Source of the DNA: an uncultured Isosphaeraceae bacterium
GTDB taxonomy: Bacteria > Planctomycetota > Planctomycetia > Isosphaerales > Isosphaeraceae
Direction of reading: 5' to 3'
DNA length: 64,000 bases
NCBI GenBank assembly: GCA_945957605.1
Contig: CAMFLR010000012.1
Coordinates: 124,001 to 188,000, forward strand
Shown: piece by piece, positions 2,827 to 54,417 of the stretch
How positions within the stretch are numbered: position 1 is the first letter of the stretch
Layout: each line of letters begins with the position of its first letter
Translations under genes and position numbers: made by a program
Notes under the pieces: generated by a model
What the model saw: only the letters and a program-made list of their open reading frames with translations
Databases searched by the model: none
What the model was told of the DNA's origin: nothing

Positions 2827-5800
2827 ATGAGCTACGGTCTACCCGAACCCCAGGGCCTTTACTCTCCCGAACAAGAGCATGACGCGTGCGGTGTCGGTTT
2901 TGTCGCCGATATCAAGGGGCGGAAAACGCACCAGCTCGTGCGTGACGCACTCACGGTTCTGCAAAACCTCAATCACCGCGGCGCATGCGGATGTGAAGAT
3001 AACACCGGCGACGGCGCCGGGATCCTGATCCAGATTCCGCACGACTTCCTCGTCTCGCGCTGCAAGCCGCTGGGAATCGACCTGCCGGAGCCGGGTAAGT
3101 ACGGTGTCGGTGCGTTCTTCGCCTCGCCGATCGTTGCACAGCAGGGTTTCGGCCAGAGGATGTTCGAGACGATCGTCGCCGAAGAAGGTTTGACCTTCCT
3201 GGGCTGGCGTACGCTGCGGACCGACAACTCGACCCTTGGTGACGGTGCGAAGCGGGTTGAGCCCGCGATGTTCCACGCCTACATCGCCTCGCCTTACGAC
3301 GATCCCGATCGCTTCGAGCGCAAGCTGTTCGTGGTGCGCAAGCGGTTCGAAACGGCGATCATGATGTCGGGGCTGGAAGACCACAAGTTCTTCTACTTCC
3401 CCAGCCTGTCGTGCCAGACCGTCGTCTACAAGGGGATGCTCACGCCCGACCAGCTCGGCAGCTACTTTGCCGACGACCTGGCCGACCCCGCGCTCACCAG
3501 CGCCCTGGCGATGGTGCACTCGCGCTTCAGCACGAACACGTTCCCGAGCTGGGAACTGGCGCACCCGTACCGCATGATCTCGCACAACGGCGAAATCAAC
3601 ACGCTCCGCGGCAACATCAACTGGATGCGTGCCCGCGAAGCTCTCTTCGCCTCCGAACTTTACGAGCCGGGCGACGTCGAGAAACTGCTGCCGATCATTC
3701 GCGAAGGATTGAGCGACACGGCGTGCCTCGACAACGCGGTCGAATTGCTCGTGAAGTCGGGCTACGACCTGGCTCACGCGATGATGATGCTCATTCCCGA
3801 AGCGTGGGAAAACCACGAGACGATGTCGCAGAGCAAGCGCGACTTCTATCGTTACCACACCGCGCTCATGGAAGCGTGGGACGGCCCGGCGTCGATCACC
3901 TTCACCAACGGCAAGGCGATTGGTGCGGTACTCGACCGCAACGGTCTGCGTCCCAGCCGCTACTGGGTGACGAGCGACGATCGCGTCATCATGGCGTCGG
4001 AAGTCGGCGCCCTCGAAGTTCCGCCCGAAAACGTCGTGAAGAAGGGACGTCTCGAGCCGGGCAAGATGTTCCTGATCGACCTCGAACAGGGCCGGATCGT
4101 CGGCGACGAAGAACTCAAGGAATCGATCGCCAGCAAGCAGCCGTACGGCCAGTGGCTCCAGGAATACATGGTGCCGCTCGGCGAAGTTCCCGATGCGCCT
4201 CACGTCGAAGGCCCCGACCCCGAAACGCTGCTCAAACGTCAGCGTGCGTTCGGCTACACGCTCGAAGACTTGAAGTACATCCTCGGGCCGATGTCGAGCA
4301 ACGGTGAAGAAGCGATCGGTTCGATGGGAACCGACACGCCGCTGGCCGTGCTCTCCGACCAGGCTCAGCCGCTGTTCAACTACTTCAAGCAGCTTTTCGC
4401 CCAGGTGACGAACCCGCCGCTCGACGCGATTCGCGAAGAGCTGGTGACGTCGGTTCTCACCGGTGCGGGCGGCGAAGGGAACCTGCTCGAACCCAAGCCC
4501 GAGAGCTGCCGCCAGATCGCGCTCGACACGCCGATTCTCGATAACGACGAGCTGGCGAAGTTCAAGCTGCTCAACGGCTGGCGCGGGTTCCGGTCGGTCG
4601 AATTGCCGATGCTGTTCGATGCGGCCGCAGGAGCTGAAGGGCTCGAACGGGCACTCGACGACCTCTTCCGCCGTGCGGCGCTGGAAGTCGAGCGCGGCGC
4701 GAACCTGCTCATCCTGTCGCACCGTGGCTCCGACGCGAAGCTCGCGCCGATTCCCTCGCTGCTCGCGACGGCCGGCTTGCACCACTACATGGTTCGTGCG
4801 GGAATTCGCAGCCGTGCCGGCCTGATCCTCGAATGCGGCGACGCTCGCGAAGTTCATCACTTCGCCCTTTTGCTCGGCTACGGCGCGGGCTCGATCAACC
4901 CGTATCTCGCGTTCGAGACGCTCGACAACATGATCGAGAACGGGATGGTCAAGGAAGGGATCGACCATTTCGAGGCGGTCAAGCGTTATCGCAAGGCAAT
5001 CAAGAAGGGCGTCGTGAAGGTGATGTCCAAGATGGGCATCAGCACGATCCAGAGCTACCGAGGCGCCCAGATCTTCGAGGCGATTGGCCTCAACGAAGAG
5101 TTCGTCGGCCGCTATTTCGACAAGACCGCCAGCCGGATCGGTGGTATCGGTCTCAAGGAAGTCGCCGCCGAGGTGCTGCACCACCACAACCACGCGTACG
5201 CCCAGCGCGACGCGGGTCCGGAATTGCTCGACTGGGGCGGACACTACCAGTGGCGCCGCGAGGGTGAGTTCCACCTGTTCAATCCCGAGACGGTCTATCG
5301 CCTCCAGCATGCAACGAAGTCGGCCCGTTTCGACATTTTCAAGAGCTACACCAAGCTCGTCGATGAGCAGAACGAGCGGCTTTGCACGCTTCGTGGCCTG
5401 TTCGACTTCAAGATCGATCCGTCGAATTCGATTCCGATTGATGAAGTCGAGTCGATCGACAGCATCGTCAAGCGGTTCGCGACCGGCGCGATGTCGTACG
5501 GTTCGATCAGCGGTGAAGCCCACGAAACGCTCGCCATCGCGATGAATCGGCTCGGCGGCCGTAGCAACACCGGCGAAGGTGGCGAAGACTCGGCGCGGTT
5601 CAAGCCGATGCCGAACGGCGACAGCAAGCGAAGCTCGATCAAACAAGTCGCGTCGGGCCGCTTCGGCGTCACCAGCGAATTCCTCGTCAACTCCGACGAG
5701 ATTCAGATCAAGATGGCGCAGGGAGCCAAGCCCGGTGAGGGTGGTCAGCTTCCCGGTCACAAGGTCTGGCCGTGGATCGCCAAGGTGCGAAATTCGACGC

Positions 5801-36283: not shown

Positions 36284-37159
36284 TCAGGCTCGCCACCGCG
36301 GCGGCCTCCGGAACCAACCGAGCGTATCGGTGTGCTTGTGATAGGTCAGGCCCAGGACGCGGACGATCGCCATCGCCTGGTACAGGGCCCATACCCAGCA
36401 CAGCCACATTCCCAGCACGCCAATCATCAGGTTTGGGGCACGAAAGAGCACGTAACGCCAGGCCAGCACGGCCGAGATGATTCCCATGCCCGAGAGGATG
36501 CACGGTCCGACATAATCCCAGCCGACGCGCCGGATTGCCACGAGCACGGCGAGAGGGTTCGCTGAAAGAATATTCTCATGCAAAAGCGACGCGGCAAGGG
36601 CCATGAGCCCATAAGCCGTGCCCAAAGCTGCCAGATCGAAGAAAATGAACTGATCGACCGTGTCGACATCGCCGCAGTTGATCCAGTACGACATCGCCGG
36701 AAATCCGCCGACCAGCGCCCCCATCACGCCCGCCCAGAGCCACCGGCCCAACCCTTCGCCGACCTCGTGAATATCCCAGTCGGGCCAGCGGGGGTGATCG
36801 TCCTCGCCATAGGCGCTCGCGGCCAGAACTCGGCCCAGGAACAGGCCGATGTACCCCGCCAGAACCAGAAATGCGCCGATGAGCGGCAGGGCGATCGGTA
36901 CCAGAAGCACGAGCACGGGACTGAGGGCGTTTTTCGATGAAATTTCGGTGAAAATGTCAATGACCGGCAGTGTCATGATGGTCAGGATCGGCGGCAGAAA
37001 GACGAGTAGTGCAACACCTGGCCCGTCCGTGATCGGATAGAGGATGGTGTCGACCACGTCGTAGTCGCGTTTGCGACGTCGGGCGCGAATCTCTCTGCCG
37101 TCCTGGTCGTAACCGACCGGGATCGACGAGATTCTCTTTCCGCTTGCCGTCTCCGCCAT
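36284..37159 (-). CDS. multi-pass membrane protein, paralogue of the 44560 gene
   Basis: A 291-residue protein. A basic cytoplasmic N-terminus (EIRARRRKRDYD) precedes about six membrane helices. Aligned by eye with the protein at 44560-45606, the blocks GRWLWAGVMGALVGG-PAMSYWINCGD and LLHENILSANPLAVLVAIRRVGWDYV match GRWFWALFAGVAVGF-PAVAYWIQCGE and LLHDDPFAANPITVIRALRHVGFDYV. This copy lacks the N-terminal zinc ribbon. ATG 37159 follows AGGGG; a longer frame would use TTG. The role is unknown; it lies upstream of the TPR gene. Confidence 0.78.
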   Translation of the reverse strand: MAETASGKRISSIPVGYDQDGREIRARRRKRDYDVVDTILYPITDGPGVALLVFLPPILTIMTLPVIDIFTEISSKNALSPVLVLLVPIALPLIGAFLVLAGYIGLFLGRVLAASAYGEDDHPRWPDWDIHEVGEGLGRWLWAGVMGALVGGFPAMSYWINCGDVDTVDQFIFFDLAALGTAYGLMALAASLLHENILSANPLAVLVAIRRVGWDYVGPCILSGMGIISAVLAWRYVLFRAPNLMIGVLGMWLCWVWALYQAMAIVRVLGLTYHKHTDTLGWFRRPPRWRA

Positions 37160-37518
37160 CCGCACCACCCCTGGCCGCAATCACGCGAAAATCGACACAT
37201 TTGTTGTACCTTGCGGCTCGCATGGATGTAAAGCAAAGCCGGGTTTAAGTCTCAGGACGATTTTATTGTCATCCTGCTCCTTACCTCGCATTTCGATTCG
37301 TGTGGGGTGCTCTCGGTTCTTGAACCGGGACGGCGGAGCCGCAAGAGGCTTCAGTTGGGAGATGGATCGCACTCTGAACGGGCTTCCCGTAAAACGTGTT
37401 TATCTCGGAAACTGCCGTCGAGCCGGAACTTCCTGAGGCTTCGCCTCACCGGTGCAAGAACCGGATGCCACCCGTCGCGAGGTTGGCCGAAAAGGATGGA
37501 AACGTGATCCTTCCGGAT
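37160..37518. other. gap with two small hairpins
   Basis: TGAGGC-ttc-GCCTCA lies at 37434-37448, and AAGGAT/ATCCTT at 37492-37512 directly past the acyltransferase stop; on the minus strand the latter is followed by TTTCGG, a weak terminator. No gene-like frame. Confidence 0.4.
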
Positions 37519-44559: not shown

Positions 44560-45606
44560 CTACCGTCCCCACATCGGGCGATAGGGAAACCACTTTTGCA
44601 CGACCTTGTTCCGTCGCGCGAACAATCCCTGGCACCGCGCCATGACCATGGCCGAATACAGGAAACCGAACCAGAACAGGCAGCTTAGTAGTGTGTAAGG
44701 GATGAACGATTGAACTTCCTGAATCCGCGCGAACGCGAACACGACTGCAATCACCCAGAAGGCCGTGAGCAAGCTGAGGAAGACGTAATCGAAGCCGACG
44801 TGCCGTAGCGCCCGAATGACGGTGATCGGATTCGCCGCGAACGGATCATCGTGCAGGAGCGCCGCGAGAAGCGCCATTTGGGAGTAGGCGACTCCCACGA
44901 CATAGAGATTGAAGAGCATGAAGTGATCGGACCAGTCGAGTTCGCCGCATTGAATCCAGTAGGCAACGGCTGGCACGAAGCCGACGGCCACGCCGGCAAA
45001 AAGAGCCCAGAACCAGCGCCCGAGGATGCGAAACACCTCGTCGCCGCTCCACGTCGGCGAGCGCGGGGGCATTGGTTCTCCAAAGCTGCTTGATGTGAGC
45101 ACATTGCTCAAGTAAATGAGCACATAGCCCATGACGCACAGGCAAATCAGGCCGACGGGGATCGACAGCACGAGTCCTGCGATCGTAAACGGCGTGTTTT
45201 GTAGGAAAATCTGGATCAGAAACGTGACCGGCGACGTGACGAAGGTGAGAGTCGGGGGGAGAAAGCAGAGAACTGCGATCGACGACCACGACCAGAGCGG
45301 ATAGGGCACGCTCTGATAGACGTGCGATTCCAGCTTGCGTGGCGGCTTGATCGGCCCCTGATCTCCGGCAGCGGGAGGAAGGCTTCGACCCCGCTTCTTC
45401 GCGCTTGCATCCGGGCGTTCGACGAATGCGCCCGGAATGGGAAGCTCGAATTCGGGCTCGCGGGCAAGGGGAGGCGGAGGCGCTTCGACCGGTTCCGGAA
45501 CGCGAAACATCGCCCCACAGCGCGGACACTTGCCTACGCGGCCAGGCCGTGCGCCTGCCAGCTTCAAAATCATTCCGCACGAGCATTCCAACGACGCGGT
45601 GCTCAT
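44560..45606 (-). CDS. zinc-ribbon multi-pass membrane protein
   Basis: A 348-residue protein. Residues 8-34 form a zinc ribbon (LECSCGMILK...KCPRCGAMF), then a linker and six membrane helices from about residue 105. The membrane part is paralogous to the protein at 36284-37159 (for example YWIQCGELDWSDHF and ANPITVIRALRHVGFDYV). AGGAA lies upstream of the ATG. Miniature element copy 3 is 45 bases further upstream. The function is unknown; the ribbon may bind a partner or RNA on the cytoplasmic side. Confidence 0.8.
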   Translation of the reverse strand: MSTASLECSCGMILKLAGARPGRVGKCPRCGAMFRVPEPVEAPPPPLAREPEFELPIPGAFVERPDASAKKRGRSLPPAAGDQGPIKPPRKLESHVYQSVPYPLWSWSSIAVLCFLPPTLTFVTSPVTFLIQIFLQNTPFTIAGLVLSIPVGLICLCVMGYVLIYLSNVLTSSSFGEPMPPRSPTWSGDEVFRILGRWFWALFAGVAVGFVPAVAYWIQCGELDWSDHFMLFNLYVVGVAYSQMALLAALLHDDPFAANPITVIRALRHVGFDYVFLSLLTAFWVIAVVFAFARIQEVQSFIPYTLLSCLFWFGFLYSAMVMARCQGLFARRNKVVQKWFPYRPMWGR

Positions 45607-45914: not shown

Positions 45915-47234
45915 TCACTTCGCCGCAGTCTGGATCGGATTCTTCACAGCCGGCGCCTTGAGCGTCTTCAAGAAGGCGACAACGTCTGCCTGTTCGGCCG
46001 GCTTGAGGCCGCGGTAGTTGGCGACCACACCCTTCGCCTCACCGCCGTGGGCCAGAATCGCCTCGTCGAGCGTCGATGCGCGGCCATCGTGAAGGTACGG
46101 GGCCGAGTCAGCCACGCCCCAGAGCGGCGGAGTTTTCCACTCGCTCGCGACTGGGATCGGCGTGCCTCCAGGCGAGGAGGGGGGCGCCGCGGGGGCCTCG
46201 CCATAATAGCCAGTGCTCGATGCGAGATCGGCACCCATGTCGTGGAGCAGCAGGTTCGAATAGAAACCCTTGATCGGTCCCATGTCGGGCGTGTGGCAAT
46301 CAGCACAGCCGATCCGGGCGAACGTTTGCTCGCCTTCGTGAACCCGCGCCGCCTCATTCTTATCGCTGGGCAACGCCTGGGTCGGCGCCTCGAGCGACGA
46401 GATGAAATCGGTCATTTGCTGGCACTGAAGGTCGGTGAGATCTGCCCCCGGCTCCTTGTAGCTGCGATATGCAAGCGGCGTCGCTTGCGGGCGGCCCGGA
46501 TTCGACAGGCCCAGTTCGTTGGCACACGCCGCCTTCACGAACTCGTTGAGCGTCGCGAATTCAGCCTTCCAGCCGAACCGGCCGAGGCGACCATCCGGCA
46601 AGCGAGCAACGCGTCCGCGGACGTTCGGATCCTTCGCCCGGCTCATGCCGACGATCCGCGCGGCCGTCGAATTCCTGCGTTGCTCGGCGTGAAGCACGTC
46701 CTCGGGAATCGCGTCGAGCTGGCCGTCGCCGAACAGGGCCGGCGTGTTCCGCTGCGTGATCGATACGCCGCTCGGAGCGCGGAAGCTGCGGTCGACGAGC
46801 GACGTCAGTTCGATGCGCGGCTGTCCGGGCAGGCCACCTGCGACATGGCTGAGCAGGTCCTGATACTTCGGCTCGGTCGCCTTGAAGTGAACCACGCCGA
46901 TGAGCGGGATCCCTTCTGTCGCGGGCTTGGTGCCGCTGGAAATACCATAAACGGTCACGTTCTTGTCGACCGGTCCGCCGCCGCCACCGCCGCCCTGGCT
47001 ATGGCACTCGACGCACGACCGGGCGTTGAAAACCGGGCCCAGGCCGTCGCCGCTGGCGAGCTTGTCCTTGGGCGTCCAGTTGTGATTGAAGAGTTCGCGA
47101 CCCGCCGCGATCGACTCCGTTGTCAACGTGCGTGGCGCGGGGCGATTGACCCACTGAGCGATTCGGACGATCGGCGGAAGCGCCAGCGCCAGAACCACCA
47201 GATAGGCAGGGCGAAAGCGGCGTGAAGCAGCCAT
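45915..47234 (-). CDS. di-heme c-type oxidoreductase (DUF1111/thiol oxidoreductase-like)
   Basis: A 439-residue exported cytochrome. An N-terminal membrane anchor or signal (FRPAYLVVLALALPPIV) is followed by heme sites CVECH near residue 75 and CADCH near 305; the first is trailed by an unusual run of glycines. Blocks such as RNTPALFGDGQLDAIPE and TPPLWGVADSAPYLHDGRAST are typical of di-heme oxidoreductases related to MauG peroxidases. It acts in the periplasm on an unknown electron donor. ATG 47234 has GGAG upstream. Confidence 0.88.
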   Translation of the reverse strand: MAASRRFRPAYLVVLALALPPIVRIAQWVNRPAPRTLTTESIAAGRELFNHNWTPKDKLASGDGLGPVFNARSCVECHSQGGGGGGGPVDKNVTVYGISSGTKPATEGIPLIGVVHFKATEPKYQDLLSHVAGGLPGQPRIELTSLVDRSFRAPSGVSITQRNTPALFGDGQLDAIPEDVLHAEQRRNSTAARIVGMSRAKDPNVRGRVARLPDGRLGRFGWKAEFATLNEFVKAACANELGLSNPGRPQATPLAYRSYKEPGADLTDLQCQQMTDFISSLEAPTQALPSDKNEAARVHEGEQTFARIGCADCHTPDMGPIKGFYSNLLLHDMGADLASSTGYYGEAPAAPPSSPGGTPIPVASEWKTPPLWGVADSAPYLHDGRASTLDEAILAHGGEAKGVVANYRGLKPAEQADVVAFLKTLKAPAVKNPIQTAAK

Positions 47235-47416
47235 GGAACTGACTCCGTGCAATTCCGAACAGGAGCGAATCGAAGCGACGCCGAGATGTGGGTAGAGTGC
47301 GACCGCATGCGGCTGGCGGGCGAACCAGCCGCGAGAAATGAGTCAATAATCATCAAGATCGGACGAATTGTTGATCGTGCTCGCACGGGCCGGCGGCAGG
47401 ATCGAATCGCGCCGAG

Positions 47417-47812
47417 TTATTTCGGCTTCGATTCCTTCGTCATCTCGTCGAGAACGGCACGAACTTCGCTCACCTGCTTGGGATCGAGCGAGTGTGATTT
47501 GAGAAGATGCAGCACGAGCAGGCCGGGCTCGCCTTCGTAGAGTTTTTCCACGAGGCTGTTAAGCCGTTTGGCCTGAACCTCTTGCGGCGTGATCAACGCA
47601 CGGTACACAAACGCCAGTTCGCTCCGGTCGCTTGCGACAACGCCCTTGGTTTCGAGCCGGTCCAGAAGCGTCGCAACCGTGGCATAAGACCACTCGCGGC
47701 CCGCCGAACGGAGCGTCTCCAATACCTCGCGCACCGAGGCTTTGCCGCGCTCCCAGAGCACCTTGAGGACGTCGAGTTCGGAATCGGGTATAGTCGCAGG
47801 TCGCTTTGCCAT
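47417..47812 (-). CDS. BlaI/MecI/CopY-family repressor
   Basis: A 131-residue repressor with the winged helix ATIPDSELDVLKVLWERGKASVREVLETL and SYATVATLLDRLETKGVV, followed by the dimerisation tail. Members are usually inactivated by an M56 membrane protease (BlaR1). Here an M48 metalloprotease is encoded divergently 190 bases away instead. Two 10-bp palindromes of the BlaI half-site type lie between them. No beta-lactamase gene is adjacent. Confidence 0.92.
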   Translation of the reverse strand: MAKRPATIPDSELDVLKVLWERGKASVREVLETLRSAGREWSYATVATLLDRLETKGVVASDRSELAFVYRALITPQEVQAKRLNSLVEKLYEGEPGLLVLHLLKSHSLDPKQVSEVRAVLDEMTKESKPK

Positions 47813-47911
47813 GTGCGGTCGTCTCTTCTCTGGTCAGGAACGTACCCCCGGCTGGGCCCAACAGCGCGAGGGCGACCGGGTTGACCGTTTCACCCAGTAG
47901 TCGTATCCTAA

Positions 47912-47955
47912 GACAAGTGTCGTCACGTCGTCAAGTCCCCAATCCGACATTTGTC
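47912..47955. promoter_or_regulatory. tandem BlaI-type operators
   Basis: GACAAGTGTC (47912-47921) and GACATTTGTC (47946-47955) share GACA-NN-TGTC and lie 34 bases apart centre to centre, between the divergent repressor and M48 genes. BlaI/MecI/CopY sites commonly have the form T/GACA-NN-TGTA/C. They probably let the repressor control both genes. Confidence 0.7.
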
Positions 47956-48002
47956 TGAAATTTGTCCCGGGCACGGTCAACCGTGACGAGGAGCCTGAGT
48001 CG

Positions 48003-49262
48003 ATGGGGGATGGCGCGGTTCCGCGCGGACTGAAATGTCCGAGGTGCGGCTTTACTCTGCAACCAGTTGAACCGGCGGCAGATGACGATTCAGGCCATCG
48101 CCTGGTTTGCCACCGTTGCGCAGAGTACTTTCGCGCCCACCGCCGACGCGATGGTAAAGACGAACCCGAGCGCGAGCCGCAACCCCCGAAACGGCAAGAC
48201 GATCCGAAACCGGTCGGCGACCTTTCGCTGCGAAGCCGGTCGCTAATCCTCCGCTGCATCGCTCGCGCCTACCCTTTAGGCGTTTTCACCGCCGCGAGCA
48301 TGATGATTCCTCTGGGAGGTTTCGTTCCCGTTCTGCGCGGCTGGATGCGCGACGAGGTCACCGACTGGGGCGACGTTCTCGAAACTCTCGGAGGTGTGCG
48401 ACTTCGCGCGGAGAGTTCCGACCCCGACGCCGATCTCGGCCCCGTGCTCGTCCGCCTCGATGCCCCGACTCTCTTCAGTGAAGTCGCGGCGGTGTCCCGC
48501 AAACTCAATGTCAAACCGCCCGATCAGATTCGTCTTGCCTATCTTCCGTGTTGCGGCGTGGTGGGCTGGCGGCGGACTCGAATCCTTCTGATTGGTTTAC
48601 CGTTGCTACAAGTCCTAAATATTGCGGAGTTTCGCGCGGTCCTGGCGCATGAGCTTGCCCACCTGGCACTGGGTGACGTGGCGTATGTGACAGGCACTTC
48701 GCGATTTGTAGAAACACTCGGCCGGGCGGTGGAACGCTCGAACGGCCGCCTGCACGGACCTTTGGGCCTCTGGGCGAAGCTTTGCTGGAGCCTGGCGCGG
48801 CGGCTCGACACGCCGATCGCACGCGGCCAGGAAGCGCGGGCCGACCGCACCTCGGCGATGATCGCCGGTGGCGGGGCCGCGGCCTCAGCGCTCGTGAAGG
48901 TGGCGATGGTGCAACCGCTCTTTCGCGAAGTGCTCGACCAGCACGATCCCGAAGATATCGACCTGCCAAACCTCTACGCCCATTTTCGCGCGTTCTGGCG
49001 TCGCCTACCGAACGAACTACGCGAGGCGATGCGGCTGCATATTCTGGTGAGTAGCACACAGCCCAAAGGATCGCCGCATCCTCCGCTCCCCGACCGTGTC
49101 TCGGTGCTTCAGACGTTTCCCGAGCACCCCGAGCCGCCCGGCGACCGCAACCCGGCCTCGACGCTCATTGGCGACCTCGAAGCGTTCGAGCAACTGCTGC
49201 ACAATCGCCTGTTTGGTGGCTTGCCGCTCGAGACGAGCGTGTTTCATCGCAATCGCGGTTGA
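48003..49262 (+). CDS. zinc-ribbon M48-type metalloprotease
   Basis: A 419-residue protein. The zinc ribbon is C12-x2-C15...C36-x2-C39, followed by a charged linker, a membrane helix at about 88-112, and an M48 domain with H216-E-L-A-H220 (VLAHELAHLALGD) and the downstream glutamate in QEARADRTSA. GAGGAG stands 9 bases before the ATG. Divergent pairing with a BlaI-type repressor and shared operators suggest that it is induced by, or even acts on, that repressor, as BlaR1 does with its own protease domain. That link is inference. Confidence 0.87.
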   Translation: MGDGAVPRGLKCPRCGFTLQPVEPAADDDSGHRLVCHRCAEYFRAHRRRDGKDEPEREPQPPKRQDDPKPVGDLSLRSRSLILRCIARAYPLGVFTAASMMIPLGGFVPVLRGWMRDEVTDWGDVLETLGGVRLRAESSDPDADLGPVLVRLDAPTLFSEVAAVSRKLNVKPPDQIRLAYLPCCGVVGWRRTRILLIGLPLLQVLNIAEFRAVLAHELAHLALGDVAYVTGTSRFVETLGRAVERSNGRLHGPLGLWAKLCWSLARRLDTPIARGQEARADRTSAMIAGGGAAASALVKVAMVQPLFREVLDQHDPEDIDLPNLYAHFRAFWRRLPNELREAMRLHILVSSTQPKGSPHPPLPDRVSVLQTFPEHPEPPGDRNPASTLIGDLEAFEQLLHNRLFGGLPLETSVFHRNRG

Positions 49263-49438
49263 TCTGAAATCGTCGCTTGCTCGCGTGCATATTCATGCGT
49301 GCATTGAATTTGCGATGAGGCAGTGCATATCGTTCGAAGAAGCGATGAAGGTTGTGGTCAATCACTGGACATCGCGCGACTTGGCGTTACCCTGATGTTC
49401 AACATCGACCGACCCGCACCGCTTCAGGAACGCCTGCG

Positions 49439-51889
49439 ATGTTCGCCACGAACACACGCCGCCTCGTCTTTGTCGCCATTCTTTTCTTCACTCACTCTGC
49501 ATGGGCTCAAGCGCCAAAGAACCGCGACGCGATTCTTCCGGGCATCACGCCCGCTGGCAAAGTCCTCCTCCCCAACGGCTGGACGCTGAGCCCCGCAGGC
49601 ACGCACACGGTTCTGGGCGACTTCCCCGTGGCGATCGCCGTGAACCCCGTCGAGCCAGTGTTGGCGATTCTGCACGCTGGGTACGGCACGCACGAGGTGA
49701 TGACGGTCGATGCTCAATCAGGTAAAACGCTCGGCCGCGTAACGCTCAACGAAACATTCGCCGGCCTGGTCTGGTCGAAGGACGGCAAGAAGCTGTACGT
49801 CGGCGGTGGTTTCGATGACGTGATTCATCGATTCGATCACGCGGCCGGCTTGCTCTCGAATCCGTTCAAATACACCTATCCCAAGTCGGATTCCCCACGC
49901 GTCGTCGCCGGGCTCGCGCTCGATAGCGACGATTCGCTCTGGGTGACGAACGCGTTTTCTCACACCGTCGCCAAGTTCGACGCGGATGCCAAGCTCGTGC
50001 TCGAAAAGCCGACGGGGAAAGACTCGTATCCCTACGGCATCGTCCTCGATAGCGAACGCAATCGCCTGTACGTCAGCCTCTGGAATCGCGCGGCGGTTGC
50101 GGTGGTCGACCGCAAAACTGGCGAAGTTTCCGCGAAGTGGGAAACGCAGGAACATCCCAACGAAATGCTCCTGGCGCCGAGCGGCAAGCGGCTCTACGTC
50201 GCCAACGCGAACCGCAACACCGTCTCGCTGTTCGAGGCCGAATCGGGCAAGGCAATCGAAACGCTGAACACGGCGATCGACCCCAAGGCGCCAGCCGGCT
50301 CGATGCCCAGCTCGCTCGCGTTGACGAAGGATGAGTCGATGCTGTTCGTCGCCAATGCCGCCACGAACGACATCGCCGTGCTCAACGTTAAAGAGGTAGG
50401 CGAAACGGCTCCGCTTGGCTTCATTCCTACCGGTTGGTTCCCGACTTCGGTGCGGCTTTCTCTCGACGGCAAAACGCTGTTCGTCTCGAACGGCAAGGGA
50501 ACAACCTCAAAGGCCAATCGCGACGGCCCGAACCCGCTCGCACGCAGCGAAGGCACCCGCGGCTACATCGCCGGCCTTTTCCAGGGAACGCTCGCACGAA
50601 TCAACTTCCCCACGCCCGCCCAGATGGCGAACTACACCAAGACCGTTTACCAATGCAGTCCGCTGCAAACGAAGGCCGCCGAAACGCGTCCCAACGGCCA
50701 TCCCATTCCCGCGAAGCTCGGCGATGCCTCGCCGATCAAGTATTGCATCTATGTGATCAAAGAAAATCGTACTTATGACCAGGTGTTCGGCGACTTGCCG
50801 CAAGGCAACGGCGAGAAGTCGCTCTGCCTCTTCCCGGACGAAGTAACGCCGAACCATCACGCGCTGGTGCAGGAATTCGTGCTGCTCGACAATTTTTATG
50901 TCGACGGCGAAGTGAGCGCCGATGGTCACGAATGGACGATGGGAGCGTTCGCGACCGACTATGTCGAACGCACTTGGCCACTGTCTTATCGTGGCGATCG
51001 TCGCGTGCCGTACCCGTCGGAAGGTGCGCTCGAGATCGCTCGTCCCGCTGGCGGCTACCTCTGGGATCGTGCGGCGGCAAAGGGAGTTTCGTATCGCAGC
51101 TATGGCGAATTCATCGCCAACGGCGCAACTCCCAACGACCCGTCGACTACCAAAGTGGCCGCGCTTCAGGGACACTTCGATCCCAAGTTCCGCGGTTACG
51201 ACCTGAACTATCCCGACGTCAAGCGTGCAGCTCGCGTGCTCGAAGAAGTGGCTGAGTTCGAGAAGAAGGGCGAGATGCCACAATTGACGATCGTGCGTCT
51301 GCCCAACGATCACACCTCCGGAACCGCCCCCGGCCGGCCGACTCCCACCGCGATGGTTGCCGAGAACGACCTCGCGCTCGGGCAGCTCGTCGAAGGGTTG
51401 TCGCACTCGAAGTTCTGGCCGCAAATGGCGATCTTCGTGATTGAAGACGATGCGCAGAACGGCCCGGATCACGTCGATGCCCACCGCACCGTCGCGCTGG
51501 CAATCAGCCCGTATATCAAGCGCAAAACTGTCGATTCGACGATGTATTCGACGTCGTCGATGCTCAAGACGATGGAGCTGTGCCTCGGTCTCGAACCGAT
51601 GAGCCAGTTTGACGCCGCCGCCCGGCCGATGGCGAACGCATTCACCGCGACTCCTGACCTCACGCCGTACAAGCATCGTCCCGCCCGTACCGATCTCAAC
51701 GCGAGAAACACGCGATTGGCATGGGGTGCGGAAGAATCGCTCAAGCTCGACCTCGACGAGGCAGAAGACCGCGCCGACGACCTTGTGTTCAACGAGATCA
51801 TCTGGAAGTCGGTCAAGGGTGCCAAGTCGCCGCTGCCAGCCCCCGTTCGCTCTGCCTTTTTCCTGCCGGTCCGCATGAAGAAGGACTAA
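49439..51889 (+). CDS. exported YncE-propeller/phosphoesterase protein 1
   Basis: An 816-residue protein with a signal peptide (MFATNTRRLVFVAILFFTHSAWA). Residues about 30-390 are YncE-like beta-propeller blades (LDSERNRLYVSLWNRAAVAVVD, LAPSGKRLYVANANRNTVSLFE). From about residue 435 a phosphoesterase domain of the phospholipase C/acid phosphatase type starts with IKENRTYDQVFGDLPQGNG and continues with EVSADGHEWTMGAFA and FVIEDDAQNGPDHVDAHRT. ATG 49439 has AGGAA upstream. It is followed after 23 bases by a paralogue. It probably hydrolyses a periplasmic phosphoester. Confidence 0.88.
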   Translation: MFATNTRRLVFVAILFFTHSAWAQAPKNRDAILPGITPAGKVLLPNGWTLSPAGTHTVLGDFPVAIAVNPVEPVLAILHAGYGTHEVMTVDAQSGKTLGRVTLNETFAGLVWSKDGKKLYVGGGFDDVIHRFDHAAGLLSNPFKYTYPKSDSPRVVAGLALDSDDSLWVTNAFSHTVAKFDADAKLVLEKPTGKDSYPYGIVLDSERNRLYVSLWNRAAVAVVDRKTGEVSAKWETQEHPNEMLLAPSGKRLYVANANRNTVSLFEAESGKAIETLNTAIDPKAPAGSMPSSLALTKDESMLFVANAATNDIAVLNVKEVGETAPLGFIPTGWFPTSVRLSLDGKTLFVSNGKGTTSKANRDGPNPLARSEGTRGYIAGLFQGTLARINFPTPAQMANYTKTVYQCSPLQTKAAETRPNGHPIPAKLGDASPIKYCIYVIKENRTYDQVFGDLPQGNGEKSLCLFPDEVTPNHHALVQEFVLLDNFYVDGEVSADGHEWTMGAFATDYVERTWPLSYRGDRRVPYPSEGALEIARPAGGYLWDRAAAKGVSYRSYGEFIANGATPNDPSTTKVAALQGHFDPKFRGYDLNYPDVKRAARVLEEVAEFEKKGEMPQLTIVRLPNDHTSGTAPGRPTPTAMVAENDLALGQLVEGLSHSKFWPQMAIFVIEDDAQNGPDHVDAHRTVALAISPYIKRKTVDSTMYSTSSMLKTMELCLGLEPMSQFDAAARPMANAFTATPDLTPYKHRPARTDLNARNTRLAWGAEESLKLDLDEAEDRADDLVFNEIIWKSVKGAKSPLPAPVRSAFFLPVRMKKD

Positions 51890-51912
51890 CCCGCTTATTT
51901 TTGAGTGAGAAT

Positions 51913-54417
51913 ATGAATCGTCGCAGCATCGTCGGGGTGATCATCGCGGCGCTCGCGGTCGGTGCGCTGGGAATGGCTCGGCTCGCTTCCATCTGGATGG
52001 GCCGGCAGCCGAATGGCTCGTTCATCGTGTCGACCGGCCAGCGCATCGAAGGGGGAGCAATCGCCTTCGACGGTCGCCCGATCGACCTGGCGCTACATCC
52101 GCTCGGCAAGTTTTACGCAGTGCTGAACAAGAATGAAATCTTGCTGGGCACGGCCGAGGGAATCATCCCAGGTTCGTCGATCAAGCTTGGCGGCAGCGCG
52201 GGTTTTCACGGACTCATCTGGTCGCCCGACGGTCAAACGCTGGTCGCCAGCACCGAGCGCGGGCATTTGCTCGCGTTCCCGCTCAAGGGCGAAACGCTCG
52301 ACACACCGAAGAAGATCGAAGTCCGCCAGTACGGTAAAGATGATAATCCGGTTCCTGGCGGAATGACGTTCAACCACGATGGCACGCGATTGTTCGTCAC
52401 GGCGGCGAATCGTAATGCGGTCGTCGAATTGAATGGCCGCACATATGAACGTGTGGCCGAACATCGCGTACAGACCCTGCCGTTCGAGGTGAAGCTTACC
52501 GACGACGAAACCACGCTTCTGGTCAGCAACTGGGGCGGCCGACTGCCCGCAGAGGGAGACCGGGTCGCGCGAAGCGAAAAGCTCAAGGTGGTGGTCGATA
52601 GCCGAGGCGTGCCGGCCACGGGAACGGTGAGCATCATCGACCTGAAGTCGAAAGAAACGAAGCATGTTGAGGTGGGAATTCATCCCACGTCGATCGTGAT
52701 TCGCGGCAAGTTCGCGTACGTCGCCAATGCGATGAGCGACACCATTTCCGAGATCAACATCAAGGAAGCAAAAGTCGCCCGGACGTTCGCTCTGCGATGG
52801 GGCCAAACGCGCGTGATCGGCGGCATGCCCAACGCACTCGCCCTGCGCGGTGATACGCTGTACGTCGGCAACGGCGGCGACAATGCACTCGTCGAGGTGA
52901 ATTTGCCAACGGGCCTCATCCGTGGCTATCGGCCCGCCGGTTACTTCCCTTCCGCCGTCGCGCTCGCGGCCGATGGCACTCGGGCGTTCGTGCTCAACAC
53001 CAAGGGGAACGGCTCGGTCCGGCGCACTTCTCGCGGGCTTCCCGGCAACGCGCACGACTTCCAGGGAACGGTGAGTGTGGTCGACCTCACGTCGGACATC
53101 GCTCGTGCCACCGAGATTGTCGCGCGGAATAATCGCTGGGAAGCAACTCCGGCGTTGCCCAAGGCGAAGGTTTACAACGGCGCGATCAAGCACGTCATTT
53201 ACATCATCAAGGAAAATCGAACCTATGATGAAGTGTTTGGCGACCTTCCCCAGGGCAACGGCGCCAAGGCGCTTTGTAGCCTTGGCGAGCGGATCATGCC
53301 GAACCATCGCAAGATCGCCCAGGAATTCACGCTGTTCGACAACGGCTACGTAAGCGGCACCAATAGCGCCGACGGTCACGCCTGGTCGACACAAAGCCTG
53401 GCGAATGAGTATCTCGAACATTTTTATGTCGGCTATTCACGCACCTATCCCGATGACGGCGACGACGCCATGGCGCTTTCGAGCGGCGGTGCGCTCTGGG
53501 ACGCCGCCGCGAAAAAAGGGCTGAGAATTCGGGTCTACGGCGAGTTTTGCGACAACAATCTTGCCGTTGTCGAGCCTCAGCCCAAGAACTGGTTCGAAGC
53601 CTGGGAAGATCGCAAAAACGGCACGAATAAATTCAAATGGCATGCGCAAACACGTGTTGCGGGCCTGCAGCCGTATATCCATCCCAACTATTTCTACTGG
53701 CCGCTTTTGATGAGCGACCAGCACCGCGCGGACATCTTCCTCAAAGATTACGAAACGCAGAGCAAGGCCGACACAGTCCCCAATTTGATGATCGTCAGCC
53801 TGCCCTGCGATCACGGCGAAGGGCTTGATCCTAGCTATCCCACGCCTCGCGCCATGATGGCTGATAACGACCTCGCGCTCGGGCGAATCATCGAAGGCGT
53901 GTCGAAGAGCCCGCAGTGGAAGGAAACGTGCATCTTCGTGATCGAGGACGACGCCCAGTCCGGCCCCGACCACGTCGACGGCCATCGCACCGTCTTCATG
54001 GCGATTAGCCCGTACTCGAAGCGGAAAGCAGTCGACTCGACGCTCTATACGACAACGCACATGATCCGGTCGATCGAGATGATGCTTGGCCTCGATCCAA
54101 TGAACAAGTTCGACCTCTTCTCCGAACCGATGGTCGCCTGCTTCAACGACGAGCTCGACCTGACGCCCTACAAGGCAGTGCCCAACAATACACCGCTCGA
54201 CGAGCGTAATCCCTCAGGTCTCAAGCTGGGCGAGCGCGACCGCTTCTGGCAGGAGAAATCGCTCTCACTCGACTGGAGCCATATCGACGGCCCCGACCCC
54301 TACTGGCTGAACCGCATTAACTGGTACAGTATCTACAAAGACACTGTTCCTTATCCCGGTCGTCCAGGCGAAGTACCGGGCAAGCGCGAAGCTGATGATG
54401 ACGACGATGATGATTGA
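51913..54417 (+). CDS. exported YncE-propeller/phosphoesterase protein 2
   Basis: An 834-residue paralogue of the preceding protein with the same order: membrane anchor (IVGVIIAALAVGALGMA), propeller (MTFNHDGTRLFVTAANRNAVVE, KFAYVANAMSDTISEIN), then the phosphoesterase domain (IKENRTYDEVFGDLPQGNG, FVIEDDAQSGPDHVDGHRT). It differs by an extra segment near residues 555-610 and a C-terminal run of seven aspartates. The frame is open up to 51721 inside the first gene, but ATG 51913 starts the anchor. Tandem duplication is clear; each may act on a different phosphoester. Confidence 0.87.
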   Translation: MNRRSIVGVIIAALAVGALGMARLASIWMGRQPNGSFIVSTGQRIEGGAIAFDGRPIDLALHPLGKFYAVLNKNEILLGTAEGIIPGSSIKLGGSAGFHGLIWSPDGQTLVASTERGHLLAFPLKGETLDTPKKIEVRQYGKDDNPVPGGMTFNHDGTRLFVTAANRNAVVELNGRTYERVAEHRVQTLPFEVKLTDDETTLLVSNWGGRLPAEGDRVARSEKLKVVVDSRGVPATGTVSIIDLKSKETKHVEVGIHPTSIVIRGKFAYVANAMSDTISEINIKEAKVARTFALRWGQTRVIGGMPNALALRGDTLYVGNGGDNALVEVNLPTGLIRGYRPAGYFPSAVALAADGTRAFVLNTKGNGSVRRTSRGLPGNAHDFQGTVSVVDLTSDIARATEIVARNNRWEATPALPKAKVYNGAIKHVIYIIKENRTYDEVFGDLPQGNGAKALCSLGERIMPNHRKIAQEFTLFDNGYVSGTNSADGHAWSTQSLANEYLEHFYVGYSRTYPDDGDDAMALSSGGALWDAAAKKGLRIRVYGEFCDNNLAVVEPQPKNWFEAWEDRKNGTNKFKWHAQTRVAGLQPYIHPNYFYWPLLMSDQHRADIFLKDYETQSKADTVPNLMIVSLPCDHGEGLDPSYPTPRAMMADNDLALGRIIEGVSKSPQWKETCIFVIEDDAQSGPDHVDGHRTVFMAISPYSKRKAVDSTLYTTTHMIRSIEMMLGLDPMNKFDLFSEPMVACFNDELDLTPYKAVPNNTPLDERNPSGLKLGERDRFWQEKSLSLDWSHIDGPDPYWLNRINWYSIYKDTVPYPGRPGEVPGKREADDDDDDD

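Follow-up and report, generated by a model that had tools for sequence, protein, structure and literature searches.

A predicted back-to-back promoter region with palindromes, shared by a BlaI-type repressor and an M48 protease, is maintained across a planctomycete family

Repressors of the BlaI/MecI type are canonically partnered by an M56 sensor protease, and the locus described here raises the question of what such a repressor controls, and what controls it, when the gene diverging from it encodes an M48 protease. An earlier note on this DNA had proposed an alternative sensor-protease/repressor module, with a zinc ribbon of the protease as the docking part. Within the 64-kb stretch that was analysed (hereafter the window), the BlaI-family gene and an intact M48 protease gene diverge across 190 bp (Table 1), and profile searches bore out both assignments: the repressor matches PF03965 (Penicillinase_R) with E=5e-28 and 98.2 bits against a curated cut-off of 22.6, and has BlaI (1sd4) and MecI (1okr) as PDB relatives, and the protease matches PF01435 with E=1.7e-10 and 41.5 bits against a cut-off of 20.3. 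With moderate confidence, we propose that an orphan, autoregulated BlaI represses a small membrane or envelope regulon that includes the M48 protease.

Table 1. Features of the blaI/M48 locus and of the genes downstream of blaI (positions within the window).
Feature	Position	Strand	Basis
BlaI-family (Penicillinase_R) transcriptional repressor, 131 aa, no cysteines	47417..47812	-	PF03965
M48 metalloprotease, 419 aa: N-terminal zinc ribbon, one hydrophobic helix, Ste24/BlaR1-like catalytic domain	48003..49262	+	PF01435
Predicted operator 1, GACAAGTGTC	47912..47921	.	palindrome, footprint across family
Predicted operator 2, GACATTTGTC	47946..47955	.	palindrome, kept at 16 of 21 loci where M48 adjoins blaI and at none of 18 others
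Predicted blaI promoter, TTGACG-18-TAGGAT	47905..47934	-	promoter scan; conserved
Predicted M48 promoter, TTGACC-17-TATCCT	47881..47909	+	promoter scan; -35 kept mainly where M48 adjoins blaI
Di-haem cytochrome c oxidoreductase (DHOR), downstream of blaI	45915..47252	-	PF06537 2.8e-29, synteny
Family C2 zinc-ribbon multi-helix membrane protein	44560..45606	-	synteny; no Pfam match

The two GACA-NN-TGTC palindromes that had been noted between the divergent genes were recovered, with centres 34 bp apart (32-35 bp in relatives), or about three helical turns. These are the only copies of GACANNTGTC in the window, against a chance expectation of 1.13 per 64 kb and so about 0.003 per 190-bp gap, and twin palindromes spaced by 14-42 bp occur once in the whole 8.8-Mb genome, where a reversed control pattern does not occur. 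The promoter scan returned exactly two sigma70-type promoters in the intergenic region versus 0.1 expected, placed back to back, one for each gene, with overlapping -10 hexamers. Seen from blaI, operator 1 occupies the promoter spacer and operator 2 is upstream of the -35; seen from M48, operator 1 comes directly after the promoter's -10 and operator 2 falls within the leader. As is characteristic of the BlaI/MecI/CopY family, a conserved palindromic candidate operator with a ACANNTGT core is thus found in the repressor's own promoter. The upstream regions of 11 further BlaI genes from the genome (10 of them M56-paired) contained neither the exact GACANNTGTC nor a ACANNTGT palindrome, so the palindrome is specific to this BlaI. 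Taken as a footprint, this layout strongly supports a bidirectional blaI/M48 promoter repressed by BlaI, the binding at the operators and the resulting repression being predicted.

According to the mechanism that we favour, the M56-free BlaI would act as an autorepressor, one dimer of which on operator 1 would block both overlapping promoters at once, and a second, bound some three helical turns away at operator 2, would strengthen the repression of both genes, acting on M48 from its leader and on blaI from just upstream of the -35. The M48 protease would be an output under BlaI control and probably serves, as HtpX and Ste24 do, in quality control at the membrane or envelope. The small regulon of membrane proteins would comprise M48 and blaI with its downstream genes, to which a 579-aa membrane protein and an HlyD-type adaptor are added in other genera; we infer both this output role and the identity of the regulon from sequence comparison. 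Release of BlaI would most likely depend on a small ligand or on another protease acting on the repressor.

Conservation was assessed in a family sample of 45 genomes, with BlaI orthologues accepted at E <= 1e-30. This BlaI occurs in 41 of the 45 (63-82% identity in most family members) and this M48 in 36, and none of the 36 genomes has the protease without the repressor. Once the divergent genus g6, in which operator 1 is absent, is left out, 38 of the 39 blaI loci in the family have an exact operator 1, and the remaining one matches 7/8 bases (G066, whose operators were assigned by eye from the sequence). The arrangement of M48 is more variable: the two genes are divergent neighbours with no gene between them at 21 loci (including G020, where M48 is broken), a small lipoprotein-like gene (C7) separates them at seven loci, M48 stands at another place in nine genomes, and the remaining genomes do not have it. 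In 16 genomes M48 is displaced from the operator region, and in about half of the genomes it is displaced or lost. The second operator follows this variation, since it is retained (at least 7/8 bases) at 16 of the 21 loci with an adjacent M48 versus none of the 18 non-adjacent ones (Fisher test, p 1e-6, a value inflated by shared descent; on a poorly resolved tree the adjacent-with-operator-2 label requires about five changes, that is, few independent events). Where M48 has been displaced, operator 2 is lost, and blaI and operator 1 persist. Two divergent genomes, G023 and G032, lack both M48 and the operator; faster evolution of BlaI after M48 loss, as the long branches of these two and of G020 might imply, was set aside as confounded with genome divergence. 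Judged from these comparisons, the back-to-back promoter region shared by blaI and M48, with its palindromes as a strict phylogenetic footprint, is maintained across the whole planctomycete family. Beyond it, the divergent BlaI-M48 pair also occurs in two members of family f4, one of them with a related promoter, and among 298 genomes sampled from the class, close relatives of this M48 are limited to the two families.

The protease itself is an M48 enzyme with an N-terminal zinc ribbon and one membrane segment, as had been described. The active site, HExxH at residues 216-220 followed by E277xxxD281 (catalytic residues H216, E217, H220 and E277), is invariant in 27 orthologues, the CxxC...CxxC motif occupies residues 12-15 and 36-39, and the single hydrophobic helix, at about residues 91-111, corresponds to a helix at 73-115 in the AlphaFold model (pLDDT 84.8). 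The M56 profile scored below its cut-off on this protein (12.7 bits, E 0.071, against 31), as did the best NCBIfam model for HtpX (M48B equivalog; 28.2 bits against 341). The closest structural matches of the model were ZMPSTE24 (Z 11.2, with ZMPSTE24/Ste24 entries at 10-11), BepA (9.6) and BlaR1 (9.3), the BlaR1 superposition beginning at, and including, the membrane helix; for a helical protein such scores are moderate, and it is the profile match and the motif that carry the family assignment. The HExxH...E catalytic core and the fold, predicted here, are common to HtpX, Ste24 and BepA, from which this M48 differs in its one N-terminal hydrophobic helix, an optional zinc ribbon, a conserved Cys-Cys before the active-site region and a BlaI-linked promoter.

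These features bear directly on the proposal that a membrane signal leads M48 to cleave BlaI in place of an M56 BlaR1, with derepression of both genes, a reading that we regard as unlikely. Much of what had been put forward for such a module is upheld, namely the divergent pair, the twin operators, the lack of an M56 partner, a pairing that is conserved and extends to family f4, the presence of BlaI wherever M48 occurs (36/36 genomes) and a predicted Ste24/BlaR1-like fold. The sensor role itself, however, is not supported. No recognisable sensor domain was found in the protease, and the zinc ribbon is missing in at least five M48 orthologues that keep the operators (G004, G012, G013, G026 and G034) and is still present in displaced copies, so that it had to be rejected both as a docking part and as a constant family feature. 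Positive charges on the N-terminal flank of most orthologues suggest that the N-terminus is inside and the active site outside the cytoplasm, although the f4 orthologues lack the membrane helix. The Staphylococcus aureus cleavage pair, Asn101-Phe102 (PMC9834060), is replaced by His-Leu in this repressor and is uninformative, as the M56-paired paralogues do not have Asn-Phe either. In the complete genome G020, the M48 orthologue (L119, G020:C2:1851573-1852633) is a pseudogene with in-frame stops, a frameshift and HDLAH for HELAH, and it stands beside an intact blaI and operator 1. Because M48 has been displaced or lost with blaI and operator 1 kept, has no sensor domain, and the palindrome also occurs at a separate membrane-protein gene, a repressed target is the simpler account; the displacement in 16 genomes, the decay in G020 and the separate membrane-protein target all fit M48 as an output. 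It thus looks more like a gene controlled by the repressor than a sensor switching the repressor off. A point against a pure output is that none of the nine genomes in which M48 stands elsewhere has given it up, and none of 36 has it without BlaI, which is more than a purely regulated target would require. This strict co-occurrence, together with the BlaR1-like fold, keeps an antirepressor role in consideration, and that M48 has replaced M56 BlaR1 as the membrane-bound BlaI antirepressor of the family, acting even from an unlinked locus, seems to us slightly more doubtful still.

A further possibility is control in trans, in which one of the genome's M56 proteases governs this BlaI and the divergent M48 is only a target. 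The canonical pairing does hold in this genome, where 12 of the 14 BlaI genes adjoin an M56 gene of the same orientation, the exceptions being the gene studied here and a second one at G000:C1:297135-297479 (L013, L123). The M56 sensor-protease partner that defines the BlaR1/BlaI two-component systems is thus missing from this locus. There are 13 M56 genes, one of which (G000:C29:24916-25806; L016, L124) has no adjoining BlaI and could in principle serve. In 9 of the 12 genomes counted, however, each M56 adjoins another BlaI and none is spare; a dedicated M56 elsewhere was rejected on this ground, and trans control would need cross-talk; the paralogous BlaI genes also lack this operator. We therefore consider such control improbable. 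Least probable, to the point of being very unlikely, is that an autoregulatory BlaI serves the genes downstream of it, with M48 as a mere neighbour outside its control, for although operator 1 accompanies blaI everywhere and the M48 -35 and operator 2 are missing in about half of the genomes, an M48 that adjoins blaI retains, over several genera, a -35 of its own as well as the second operator within its leader.

The repressed-target account draws further on sites away from blaI. In genera g9 and g16, exact twin sites precede the gene for a multi-helix membrane protein of 579 aa, and they also lie directly upstream of an HlyD-type membrane-fusion (adaptor) gene in four genomes of genus g9 (L237-L240). 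Within this unrelated 579-aa family, 14 of 20 genes have an exact GACANNTGTC palindrome at most 300 bp upstream, compared with about 1 expected, usually embedded in the -35/spacer and in some genes as twin sites. The shared motif suggests that this BlaI would bind the palindromes of both the 579-aa and HlyD genes, yet in G019, a genome 77% complete, the palindrome precedes the membrane-protein gene and this BlaI was not found. The 579-aa family (L235, L236, L241 and L245-L264) has no Pfam match, and the genome from which the window comes lacks the gene. Closer to blaI, the family C2 gene is found downstream on the same strand in most loci, including those from which M48 moved away, and the DHOR gene, present in about 10 relatives, is a possible member of the blaI operon.

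Comparison with known systems places the locus between several of them. As in BlaR1/BlaI and MecR1/MecI, a BlaI-family dimeric repressor would act on paired palindromic operators over divergent promoters, and a zinc metalloprotease gene belongs to the controlled pair; here, however, the protease is of M48 rather than M56 type and carries no beta-lactam or other sensor domain, the operator core is GACA..TGTC rather than TACA..TGTA, and no beta-lactamase or PBP target was seen. The CopY/CopR copper repressors share the repressor family and the operator core, KACANNTGTM and often duplicated (PMC7253601). A search of this BlaI for their C-terminal Cys-X-Cys metal site found no cysteine at all in its 131 residues, on which ground CopY-like copper sensing was rejected, and there is no copper exporter nearby. 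A parallel in organization is given by Clo1313_0696 and _1845 of Clostridium thermocellum, which have small autoregulated BlaI regulons defined by paired inverted repeats (PMC8457756), as proposed here, although their operons encode BlaR1 and the present locus does not. A literature search for BlaI with M48, or for BlaI in planctomycetes, returned nothing relevant. At this locus a BlaI-type repressor stands apart from M56 sensors throughout a family, a clean example for which the predicted shared promoter and its operators are mapped to the base and candidate members of the regulon are named. The example also indicates that BlaI regulators in planctomycetes need not signify a beta-lactam response, and it permits a direct test of whether M48 proteases can be antirepressors.

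Some minor observations concern the surroundings of these genes. When BlaI genes were sought beside M48 relatives outside the family, only the family's own loci and one archaeal case appeared among 65 loci; the latter, a Brockarchaeota record (L197, about 3999-5156) in which a BlaI-like gene immediately precedes an M48 relative in the same orientation, is possibly an independent pairing. The C7 gene, which is small, Lys/Ala/Glu-rich and lipoprotein-like, precedes M48 in the clade in which M48 left the BlaI operator region (L090, L094, L095, L097, L098, L110, L112, L114 and L116). In the window, M48 is followed at 49352-54417 (+) by two tandem beta-propeller and phosphoesterase-type genes that are not constant in relatives, and a second relative of family C2, whose members occur with or without the N-terminal zinc ribbon, is encoded at 36284-37180 (-).
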